A DNA stretch of 64,000 nt, from the NCBI RefSeq assembly GCF_000745125.1, contig NZ_JQNF01000003.1, positions 372,001 to 436,000 of the forward strand, read 5' to 3'. Position 1 is the first letter of the stretch; each line of letters begins with the position of its first letter. The stretch is from Carnobacterium jeotgali MS3 (lineage in GTDB: Bacteria; Bacillota; Bacilli; Lactobacillales; Carnobacteriaceae). Under the pieces are notes generated by a model. The model was not told the DNA's origin. It searched no databases and worked only from the letters and a program-made list of their open reading frames with translations. A program made the translations under genes and the position numbers. This document shows positions 35,563 through 40,585 of the stretch, piece after piece.

Positions 35563-36531
35563 ATGAAAAAGTTAAATTGGGGAATTTTAGGTTTAGGACA
35601 AATTGCAAATGAATTTGCTGAAACATTCAATGTTGATAATGCCGTACTTTATGCTGCGGGTTCACGAAATATTAAAAAAGCAGCTGCATTTGCTGAAACA
35701 CACGGAATCAAAAAATCATATGGCTCATACGAAGAATTATTAGCTGATCCATCCATTGATGTTGTTTATATTGCTACACCGCATAGCCATCATGCTGATT
35801 TGATCTTGAAAAGTTTAGAACACGGCAAACACGTTTTATCCGAAAAAGCTATTACGATGAATAATAATCAGTTAGCGCAAGCTATGAAATTAGCTGAAGA
35901 AAAAAATCTTATTGTATCTGAGGCAATGGTTATTTACCACATGCCGCTTTACCATAAGCTAAAAGAAATCGCTCAAGAAGGATCACTTGGTAAATTAAAA
36001 ATGATCCAAGTCTCTTTTGGAAGTTTAAAAGAAGAAGATCCAACAAACCGCTTTTTCAATAAAGATCTTGCTGGTGGGGCTTTACTGGATATCGGAATTT
36101 ATGCCTTATCTTTTACCCGCTTTTTCTTGACTAGCCAACCACATGAAATTCACACGACCATGAATTTTTACGAAACAGGTGTGGATGAGCAATCGGGTAT
36201 TCTATTAAAAAATGACCATGATGAACTAGCTGCCATTACGCTTACCTTTAGAGCTAAAATGCCTAAAATAGGAATCGTTGCATTTGAGAATGGTTTTTTC
36301 ACAGTCAATGATTTCCCACGTGCAGAAAAAGCGACGTTAACCCGTCCAGATGGTTCAGTAGAAACGATTGAAGCTGGCGATACAAAACAAGCTATGAATT
36401 ATGAAATAGCCGATATTACTAATCTAATTTTATCAAATCGCCCAGATCCTTCACTTACCCTTACCCATGATGTAATGGAAATTATGGATACATTGAGAAC
36501 CAAATGGGATCTTCATTACGATTTCGAATAA
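35563..36531 (+). CDS. Gfo/Idh/MocA family oxidoreductase
   Basis: NAD(P)-dependent sugar/inositol-type dehydrogenase (322 aa). The Rossmann N-terminus has WGILGLGQIANEFAETF (residues 5-21), and the family signature HVLSEKAITMNNNQLAQAM (about 90-108) holds the EK(A/P) motif, where the Lys is the usual catalytic residue. The C-terminal alpha/beta domain starts near 120; DIGIYALSFTRFF carries the GIY motif. The substrate is unknown. AGGAGG precedes the ATG; a TGATAACGTTTAAA at 35529-35542 matches 12 of 14 cre positions and lies between a TAAAAT -10 element and the gene, so catabolite control is possible. It ends in a strong terminator. Confidence 0.93.
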   Translation: MKKLNWGILGLGQIANEFAETFNVDNAVLYAAGSRNIKKAAAFAETHGIKKSYGSYEELLADPSIDVVYIATPHSHHADLILKSLEHGKHVLSEKAITMNNNQLAQAMKLAEEKNLIVSEAMVIYHMPLYHKLKEIAQEGSLGKLKMIQVSFGSLKEEDPTNRFFNKDLAGGALLDIGIYALSFTRFFLTSQPHEIHTTMNFYETGVDEQSGILLKNDHDELAAITLTFRAKMPKIGIVAFENGFFTVNDFPRAEKATLTRPDGSVETIEAGDTKQAMNYEIADITNLILSNRPDPSLTLTHDVMEIMDTLRTKWDLHYDFE

Positions 36532-36540
36532 ATTTGCAAA

Positions 36541-36600
36541 AAAGAATCCAAGGATAAGTCCTATGTTACAGAGACTTATCCTTGGATTTTTATTTTTTAA
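36541..36600 (+). terminator. Terminator of the oxidoreductase gene
   Basis: Perfect 15-bp stem AATCCAAGGATAAGT / ACTTATCCTTGGATT (36545-36588) with a T-rich tail. Confidence 0.93.
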
Positions 36601-36669
36601 ATGTTTCTCTTACTGGATCGTTCAACAATTCCATTTCCTTTTAACTTTGCAAAATCCCATTAGAATTCT

Positions 36670-36867
36670 ACTCTAAGTTAGTTGAATTAAGCTAGTTGCC
36701 CTTACTCAGATGAAAATCGTTTCTGAGTTGTTCGAATTAAGGTTTATTGCCCCTACTCAAACGGAAATCGGTTTTGAGTTCATCGAATTAAGGTTTATTA
36801 CCCCTACTCAAATGGAAATCGGTTTTGAGTTCATCGAGTTAAGGATTGTTACGCCCTATTTAAATAG
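36670..36867 (-). repeat. 51-bp tandem array with covarying hairpins
   Basis: Units at 36684-36733 (50 bp), 36734-36784 and 36785-36835 (51 bp each), a partial unit at 36836-36867 that reaches the end of the DUF1002 gene, and a decayed one before 36684. Each unit can form a hairpin: ACTCAAA/TTTGAGT in units 2 and 3, ACTCAGA/TCTGAGT in unit 1, a compensatory base-pair change. In the direction of the gene it follows the stop codon. Confidence 0.85.
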
Positions 36868-37833
36868 ACCTACGATAGCATCCCATATTTGGCTAAAGAA
36901 GTTGCCGACTTTATCTACTAATCCACTATCTTCAGCTTGTTGCAGAGCGTCGCCAAATTTATCTTGAACGGTATTGGACAAGTTCTTCAACTGTTCTTTT
37001 ACTTCAGCAGAATCAATCGCACTTGTTTGTTGGTATTTTTCAAATAAAGCCATCAATTGATCAATTTGATCTTGCGTAACTGCATTTTGCAAGTTATTTT
37101 TTTCTAACGCTTCATTAATAATGCGTTCAACATCTTCTTTTGTAGCTAATTCACCTTGTTGTTCTTTCAAATCAGCTAAACTTTGTTTAATATCAATAAT
37201 CGCTTGGTCAAATTTGGCTGTATCAAATTCTTCATTCCCGTTATTTTCTTGTGCAATCTCATTGGTTGTTTCTAATTCCTGCTGTGCTACTTCCATACGC
37301 TCTTGGTCTAATTCTTCCCCATTAACGTCAAAAGCTTTATAAATACCTGTTAAGGCACTTTCTCCTGTAACCTTGCTGACACTTGCTACCTCGATTTTCA
37401 CATCATTAACTCCTGCAGTGATTGCTGCATTTGCATATTGGTCTTGTGTAATTTGACTGATATTTTCTGGAGTGACAATTTCAACATCGACACCTTCTCC
37501 AGTGTCTTGTTTCTGTACCAATACGGATGAGATCATGCTAGATGTGTTTCCTGATCCTTCACCTAAATAATTGATCAAGTCTTGACCTGTCACACTTCCG
37601 ACAGCTACATTTTCTGGATTTTTAATATTTAATAACTCTTCTGTTTCAGTTATTTGGCTTTCAGATAATCCTCCGCCATAGATAAAAGTAGGTTTTCCCC
37701 ATTTTTCATCTACAACAGTTGTATCGATTCCATTCGTAGTTGCACTAGCAGATTGTGGCAACAACGCTACTGACGCTCCCACCAAACTCAGTGCTGTTAA
37801 AGCCGTTAAACTTATTTTTTTTAATTGATTCAT
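36856..37833 (-). CDS. Secreted DUF1002 domain protein
   Basis: 325-aa exported protein. The signal peptide (MNQLKKISLTALTALSLVGA...ASA, cleavage near residue 31) is followed by the DUF1002 domain (about 45-220; KPTFIYGGGLSESQITETEELL, VAVGSVTGQDLINYL, AAITAGVNDVKIEVASVSKVTGESALTG) and a charged, helical C-terminal part. The function of DUF1002 is unknown; members are secreted in many Firmicutes. The ATG at 37833 has AAGGAGG eight bases upstream; the longer frame starting upstream crosses that site. The 3' end is followed at once by the 51-bp tandem array. Confidence 0.92.
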   Translation of the reverse strand: MNQLKKISLTALTALSLVGASVALLPQSASATTNGIDTTVVDEKWGKPTFIYGGGLSESQITETEELLNIKNPENVAVGSVTGQDLINYLGEGSGNTSSMISSVLVQKQDTGEGVDVEIVTPENISQITQDQYANAAITAGVNDVKIEVASVSKVTGESALTGIYKAFDVNGEELDQERMEVAQQELETTNEIAQENNGNEEFDTAKFDQAIIDIKQSLADLKEQQGELATKEDVERIINEALEKNNLQNAVTQDQIDQLMALFEKYQQTSAIDSAEVKEQLKNLSNTVQDKFGDALQQAEDSGLVDKVGNFFSQIWDAIVGLFK

Positions 37834-39541: not shown

Positions 39542-40583
39542 AAATTAAGCTAGACAAATAAAAAAGCCATTCGTGGTACACTCAAAATGTATTTCCGACC
39601 AAAGAAAACATAGGAGTGATCACGAATGACCTACACCCATCTTACCACTGAAGAACTTGTAATGATAGAAGCTTATTTCCATCAAAAAATTTCTGTTTTG
39701 AAAATTGCCACCTACATTGGCCGTTCACGTCAGACGATTCATAACGTAGTTACTTTCCTAAGGAAAGGTTACACGGCTCTTGATTACTTTAAACAATACA
39801 AAGAAAATAAGAAGCGCTGCAGTAGACATCCTATTACCTTACCCAATGACCAACAAGAATATATTCAAAAGATGGTTGCTCAAGGATGGACTCCAGATGT
39901 GATTATTGGTCGTGCAGAAAGGTTCATCGCTTGTTCCTCACGCACCTTGTACCGACAGTTCAAACAAGGGCTCTTTGATCAAACAACTCTTCCTATGAAA
40001 GGAAAACGTAAACCAAACGGTCATAAAGAAAAACGAGGGAAACAAGCTTTCAAAAGAAATATATCTGAAAGATTAACGGATTATCCACAATTTGAAGACG
40101 AGTTTGGTCATCTAGAAGGAGACACTATTGTTGGCATTCATCATAAAAGTGCTGTAATCACATTGGTTGAACGGATTTCAAAAGCCATTATTACTATGAA
40201 GCCCAATGGGCGTAAAGCACAAGATGTTGAAGAAGCCATAAACAACTGGTTCCAATGTATTCCAAGAAATCTCTTCAAATCCATTACGTTTGATTGTGGA
40301 AAAGAGTTTTCCAACTGGAAAACCATTAGTAATCTAAATGATGTTGCTATTTACTTTGCTGATCCAGGAACTCCATCCCAGCGAGCTTTAAACGAGCATT
40401 CTAATGGACTGCTTCGAAAAGACGGTTTACCGAAAGAAATGGATTTTAACCAAGTTGATCAATCTTTTGTCTCTGCAGTCGCTTCAGTAAGAAATCAGAT
40501 CCCAAGAAAATCTTTACAGTATCTGACACCGTTAGAAGTATTTTTAAATTACATTAATGAGTGGGAACTGTCTAACTTAATTT
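39542..40583 (+). mobile_element. IS30-family insertion sequence
   Basis: About 1.04 kb. The ends are inverted copies: AAATTAAGCTAGACA on the left and the complement of TGTCTAACTTAATTT on the right (14 of 15 match). One transposase gene fills the element, and its TGA stop uses two bases of flanking DNA on the right. No clear target duplication is visible (left flank TTGTA, right flank GACAA). The element splits a minus-strand gene. Confidence 0.88.
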
Positions 40584-40585
40584 GA
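39626..40585 (+). CDS. IS30-family transposase
   Basis: DDE transposase (319 aa). The N-terminal helix-turn-helix (LTTEELVMIEAYFHQ, IATYIGRSRQTIHN) binds the ends; the catalytic part has the first Asp in HLEGDTIVGI, the second Asp in SITFDCGKEF and the final Glu in the NEHSNGLLRKDG region, the usual IS30 pattern. The frame is intact from ATG to stop, so the element may still move. It is transcribed opposite to the gene it interrupts. Confidence 0.95.
   Translation: MTYTHLTTEELVMIEAYFHQKISVLKIATYIGRSRQTIHNVVTFLRKGYTALDYFKQYKENKKRCSRHPITLPNDQQEYIQKMVAQGWTPDVIIGRAERFIACSSRTLYRQFKQGLFDQTTLPMKGKRKPNGHKEKRGKQAFKRNISERLTDYPQFEDEFGHLEGDTIVGIHHKSAVITLVERISKAIITMKPNGRKAQDVEEAINNWFQCIPRNLFKSITFDCGKEFSNWKTISNLNDVAIYFADPGTPSQRALNEHSNGLLRKDGLPKEMDFNQVDQSFVSAVASVRNQIPRKSLQYLTPLEVFLNYINEWELSNLI

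Follow-up and report, generated by a model that had tools for sequence, protein, structure and literature searches.

What is an array of 51-bp units doing at the 3′ end of a DUF1002 gene of Carnobacterium? The original prediction, made from the letters of the window (the whole 64,000-nt stretch of DNA that was analysed), took the units for a series of hairpins carried in the tail of the message, with stem pairing kept by compensatory change. Comparison across the genus supports another answer. With a probability of roughly 0.8, the window array is the decayed remnant of a MITE with IS4/5-type ends and a 51/52-bp minisatellite, targeted to TA, mobilised in trans and variable by slippage.

The array itself is largely as first described. 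Three 51-bp units in tandem are borne out by the sequence, by repeat finders and by a Tandem Repeats Finder score of 228 (the runner-up among the 11 rows for the window scored 57), and the sequence agrees with the stems given for each unit (Table 1). All three copies align without gaps, units 2 and 3 being 84% and 78% identical to unit 1. The last unit extends to 36855 in the frame of the covariance model R1, described below, and the divergent half-unit at the left has its counterpart, by eye, in the divergent first unit of many sister arrays. The array lies between a convergent Gfo/Idh/MocA-type gene (plus strand) and the DUF1002 gene (minus strand). It had been placed at the stop codon of the latter; it does adjoin the gene and, as framed, its end is 7 bp from that codon (36856–36858, minus strand). 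The DUF1002 protein has a 74% match to a Carnobacterium sp. MAG, which is its one named match in the genome collection. Elsewhere in the window, ORF 39626–40585 presumably encodes an IS30-type transposase, by its look.

Table 1. Features around the window array, followed by unit numbers of like-oriented arrays at three orthologous sites
Feature	Position	Strand	Evidence or content
Gfo/Idh/MocA-type oxidoreductase gene, convergent	35563–36531	+	PF01408, E 4e-23
Strong inverted repeat flanked by A/T runs, beyond the array	36538–36595	.	23-nt arms, 91% complementary, 12 nt apart
Divergent left half-unit	36664–36695	+	Model R1 match 36669–36702, 16.8 bits, E 0.013
51-bp unit 1, stem ACTCAGA/TCTGAGT	36696–36746	+	Sequence and repeat finders; R1 frame shifted by 7
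51-bp unit 2, stem ACTCAAA/TTTGAGT	36747–36797	+	Sequence and repeat finders; model R1
51-bp unit 3, stem ACTCAAA/TTTGAGT	36798–36848	+	Sequence, repeat finders, R1
DUF1002 gene, 3′ end abuts the array	36856–37833	-	PF06207, E 7.1e-58; matches in 6/6 genus genomes
Shared site L120, L128, L109			14, 4, 12 units
Shared site L116, L135, L139			6, 2, 4 units
Shared site L121, L129			11, 4 units

The unit belongs to a family that is real, mobile, genus-wide and ordinary in kind. As a query, the window array gave six matches in its own genome (G000, 2.5 Mb in 12 contigs), itself included, and matches in all five sister genomes of the genus (G001–G005), with none in 53 other relatives. Model R1, built from 87 units and applied within the genus at a cut-off of E 0.01 or better with 150 candidates scored per genome, gave, for G000 to G005 in that order, at least 30, 96, 49, 28, 37 and 86 matches, and at least 326 in the six genomes. 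A scan of 295 genomes of the order at E 1e-4 returned the six genus genomes and one other only, G174, with a single weak match (E 8.8e-5) among 289 non-genus genomes. From 57 stretches fetched around matches, 294 unit detections were obtained and reduced to 291 by removing three on the opposite strand; array L122 is counted with six units, an opposite-strand detection there being excluded. The 291 units fall into 58 arrays in the six genomes, two of them (L124 and L157) with a single detected unit, and shuffled stretches gave none; the 326 matches and the 291 units come from separate methods, and the two sets are not paired one to one. Units are spaced by 51 bp in 133 of 233 steps and by 52 bp in 94. 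Searched with a 311-base array stretch of G001, plasmid and phage collections gave no match; seven viral contigs carry one core motif each, for which the only R1 match is weak (18.2 bits), and none of the seven contains an array. Among the open-access papers listed in literature searches, none describes a Carnobacterium 51/52-bp unit family.

Parentage is indicated by the ends of the arrays. Inverted ends of the form TAGG-YGTGTTTTAAAACTA / TAGTTTTAAAACAC-CCTA, sought with up to 4 mismatches, occur on both sides of 10 of the 58 arrays, on the right only in 11, on the left only in two and on neither side in 35, against 0/232 (left) and 1/232 (right) in control windows. The length of elements that retain both ends ranges from 202 to 671 bp. 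The scan with the right end also found an insertion sequence of ∼860 bp in G001 (L190, about 663–1521), with like ends and a split reading frame. Its first ORF carries DUF4096 (PF13340, IS4/5 family, E 8e-26) and its last piece gives weak matches to DDE transposase domains, below the curated cut-offs; from this we infer membership of the IS5 family. Ten copies, with first ORFs 98–99% identical, are present in G001, and fragments in G002; with the first ORF as query, no match was found in G000, G003, G004 or G005. Modules that resemble the ends of this insertion sequence better than shuffles do are found on the right, corresponding to its 3′ end, in 22/58 arrays and on the left in 4/58, with 71–85% identity in blastn. 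Because their ends are like those of the insertion sequence, the arrays stand where the middle of such an element has been deleted. Terminal inverted repeats and homologous end modules thus characterize the family and are absent from the window copy, in which no inverted end or IS module is recognisable. The elements are also short, numerous (58 arrays) and devoid of a transposase gene, as judged by size and ORF lengths only.

Mobility is visible at individual sites. Three elements of 269–270 bp in G000 are mutually 91–92% identical. At site L105, G004 reads ...TTATTA-GTCAAACGG... and G000 reads ...TTATTA-element-TAGTTAAACGG...; the site is precisely empty in G004, which has one TA there, and in G000 TA stands on both sides of the element. 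It is the one site at which a target-site duplication was found. At a second G000 site, the element is seen, by eye, in none of the five relatives. Other orthologous sites hold like-oriented arrays that differ in unit number (Table 1). The element would therefore be a small non-autonomous transposon composed of two IS4/5-type ends with the 51/52-bp minisatellite between them. It would transpose into TA sites, as shown at one site; an IS5-family transposase probably acts in trans, as the similar ends suggest, and the minisatellite may grow and shrink by slippage or unequal recombination, to which the copy numbers at orthologous sites point.

How the window array relates to such elements is best seen at the DUF1002 site in other species. 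The DUF1002 protein is present in six of six genus genomes. Arrays in like orientation lie 3′ of its gene in three of them, G000 (the window), G002 and G003, with 3, 6 and 5 detected units. No unit was found behind DUF1002 in G004, G001 or G005. In G004, this array-free site has, by eye, a terminator-like hairpin directly after the DUF1002 stop, and G001 and G005 have different sequence beyond it. A transposase-like reading frame is discernible by eye past the stop in G001 (locus L163), where others have an array or a plain terminator. In the G003 copy, again by eye, the right end looks like that of the insertion sequence and falls on the TA of the DUF1002 stop codon; this end scores 28 against the insertion sequence, with a shuffle maximum of 27, and does not pass the shuffle threshold. 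Between this array and the DUF1002 stop (L160, about 1380–1425) stands a perfect palindrome, CCTTATTGC...GCAATAAGG, and after it a T run. Its loop of more than 8 kept the terminator scan from calling it, and its sequence looks unit-like, as if the element had become a terminator. An element would thus have settled at the 3′ end of DUF1002, in G003 seemingly on the TA of its stop codon, and the window copy would have lost its recognisable ends and kept three units. As the window ends are not recognisable, the evidence for this descent is the homology of the units together with the orthologous copy in G003.

Pure decay of a mobile element would not by itself account for the uneven conservation of the unit. 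Within arrays, stem columns differ in a fraction of 0.10 of comparisons and other columns in 0.23 (45 arrays), and the variation of A33, A34 and T46 rounds to 0.00 (interior units of 38 arrays). When core columns were taken from G001, G004 and G005, they were less diverged in all seven orthologous pairs (five sites) among G000, G002 and G003, with divergences of 0.08–0.21 in the core and 0.32–0.49 in the rest, i.e. 1.7 to 4.9 times less; pairs at one site are not independent. With core columns chosen on the same data, all 18 orthologous pairs agree. Fifteen of these 18 were hand-picked where both flanks match, one-side matches being excluded, and the three added pairs (L101, L108 and L152, with paralogous flanking genes) give 0.10–0.14 in the core and 0.41–0.45 elsewhere. 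Purely neutral decay would not yield such a pattern. Core conservation could result from selection on active copies, from conversion between arrays or from a binding function in place.

The last of these options leads to the strongest rival explanation, in which the unit core is a putative DNA binding site for a host protein and arrays are maintained at gene ends as platforms with several such sites. Besides the cross-species test, the same-data comparison and the columns that hardly vary within arrays, the gene context would fit. No array lies within a long gene, and in unit orientation 21 of the 58 arrays are convergent, 28 co-directional (13 with and 15 against the genes) and nine divergent, as judged from ORFs of at least 90 codons, which are crude calls made without a gene caller. 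Convergent gaps are enriched, with 21/58 arrays against 18/121 among gaps of 100 bp or more, free of arrays, in the same stretches (Fisher p 0.0019), and divergent gaps are not significantly depleted (9/58 against 32/121, p 0.13). However, there is no candidate protein, the presence of arrays at shared sites is patchy, the baseline of the enrichment derives from the crude ORF calls, same-site pairs are not independent, and selection on copies that actively transpose, or conversion between arrays, could conserve the core equally. A binding platform is thus rather unlikely as the explanation of the array. It is tempting to extend it and to propose that a host protein or a transposase would recognise a selected core (the palindromic ACTCAAA...TTTGAGTT plus the CGAA block) and so keep IS5-derived arrays in place, across species, as binding platforms of many copies at shared gene ends, and that IS5-type MITEs, those of Carnobacterium and of Porphyromonas alike, may acquire minisatellites again and again, as the repeats help the element; in this full form the proposal is unlikely.

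The reading of the original prediction, a succession of RNA hairpins under selection in the DUF1002 3′ tail for message stability, fares worse and is very improbable. Transcription of the array is its better part. The array comes after the stop codon and the scan called no terminator-like site between the two; the strong inverted repeat beyond the array, which escaped the scan as its 12-nt gap exceeds the loop limit of 8, is probably the shared terminator of both convergent genes. Since no terminator is called before the array and a strong inverted repeat follows it, a DUF1002 message that reads through the window array is plausible. The hairpins that it would contain are weak, with -4.8 to -7.9 kcal/mol on both strands. 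Only unit 1 folds better than shuffles (z about -2.9), the z values of units 2 and 3 being -0.06 to -0.82. On the minus strand, the entire tail together with the far inverted repeat folds stably (z -5.76), as compared with z -1.79 for the array alone on that strand and -0.20 on the plus strand. Moreover, three of the six species have no array behind DUF1002, and in G003 the palindrome with its T run would, by eye, end the message upstream of the array, although the scan did not call it. Array orientation is independent of the strand of flanking genes. As arrays occur in all gene contexts and co-directional ones split 13 to 15, a strand-specific role in the 3′ tail is not a common property of the family, and a strand-specific RNA role was dropped as a general rule. 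On balance the prediction is partly supported.

Pairing within the stem leads to the same view. Pairs were counted in those units that score 35 bits or more (223 units from 53 arrays). The pair held to be compensatory, A7–T21, is the least kept of the stem: 121 units have A-T, 85 have A/C, six have G-C, one has G/T and the rest have other combinations. At C5–G23, 175 units have C-G, 27 have C/C and five have G-C, and all seven stem pairs are Watson–Crick in 70/223 units. Arrays whose units do not keep the pairing had been named as the observation that would speak against the prediction, and they exist: all five scored units in each of L130, L122 and L137 are A/C. The compensatory change is real in the window stems and is not the rule in the family (A/C in 85/223 units, C/C in 27/223), which lacks the pairing kept by compensatory change that marks a conserved 3′ UTR hairpin. 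An excess of pairing over shuffles is seen in the 87-unit alignment, in which 85.6% of stem cells are paired (84.3% in shuffles, 0/500 as high) and two-sided changes amount to 8 cells (2.9 in shuffles, 0/500); it is a small signal, which relatedness can inflate. Two other measures show no rise in this alignment: pairs with a two-sided change number 3 (2.1 in shuffles, 138/500), and further pair types 8 (7.9 in shuffles). As RNA, 126/223 units would be fully paired on the minus strand, where A/C at 7–21 becomes a G–U wobble, and 76/223 on the plus strand. The excess of A/C over G/T (85 against 1) can also reflect one-sided variation; column 7 is nearly always A, so the excess is no proof of minus-strand RNA. 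In array L145 (G005:C2:853992–854404), there are units with the stem ACTGAAA/TTTCAGT, a double change, and other G005 units have C/C or G/G there. The palindrome is common to the family, as a conserved portion of its unit, and did not evolve as a structure for the DUF1002 message. For the family as a whole the hairpin reading is unlikely, and for the window copy, whose local effect would mainly be a longer untranslated tail for DUF1002, it is unproven.

Two further readings can be dismissed. A coding repeat has practically no chance, for although 51 is divisible by 3, the plus-strand frame of the array stays open over 85 codons (ORF 36710–36967, which continues into DUF1002 antisense) and 12 of the 58 arrays overlap open ORFs of at least 90 codons, each confined to the array region, the 52-bp spacing in 94/233 steps breaks the frame and led to rejection, the window ORF has no Pfam match and several of the most conserved columns are, by inspection, third codon positions. 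The likelihood of a CRISPR-like array is negligible as well: direct repeats are regular and partly palindromic, but the entire 51-bp unit repeats, where identical repeats with unique spacers define a CRISPR, and the Rfam scan of the whole window returned nothing at the gathering threshold.

There remains the decayed MITE with its minisatellite, and such assemblies of small mobile parts have parallels in other bacteria. The EFAR elements of Enterococcus faecalis, a kind of miniature insertion sequence, contain palindromic parts and vary in how they are assembled. The Carnobacterium family is best filed as a minisatellite-bearing MITE that resembles BrickBuilt and BOX. If the main reading holds, a puzzling array in a message tail is explained as transposon debris, and the definition of a genus-wide repeat family offers possible variable-number markers for these bacteria.

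STAR, of Staphylococcus aureus, is a set of direct repeats interspersed between genes; its loci lengthen and shorten and contain sequence specific to each locus (PMC3532100). The likeness lies in intergenic direct repeats that vary in length; the difference is that STAR locations vary between staphylococcal species (PMC3532100), whereas several array sites are common to species here. In BOX, of Streptococcus pneumoniae, end modules enclose a tandem array of boxB that varies in length, and the inverted ends are similar to ISSpn2 (PMC3049150). It shares with the present arrays, in architecture only, end modules with a tandem array, IS-like inverted ends and stem-loops predicted if transcribed, and it belongs to another genus, Streptococcus (PMC3049150). 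In Porphyromonas gingivalis, 464/PgRS is similar by description, with internal 41-nt tandem direct repeats (PMC4596501).

The closest parallel is BrickBuilt of P. gingivalis, an intergenic MITE with a 23-nt minisatellite, a leader and a tail and IS5-type inverted ends (PMC4596501). No transposase remnant is reported in its copies, and promoter activity was tested there (PMC4596501). Promoter-like sites number 2 between 36400 and 38000 of the window, as compared with 5.6 in shuffles, and none is inside the array, so a BrickBuilt-like promoter role is without support here. Both families are intergenic, with a central minisatellite and short inverted ends like those of the IS5 family; they differ in unit length (23 nt there, 51 here) and in phylum, and right modules resemble the 3′ end of an insertion sequence here, in contrast to the reported lack of transposase remnants there (PMC4596501). 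A tandem repeat bounded by inverted ends, as in BrickBuilt, is seen in 10/58 arrays, the window copy not among them, and the likeness is one of architecture. The Carnobacterium arrays thus join BrickBuilt as a second example of a minisatellite carried by an IS5-type MITE, here with a conserved unit core.
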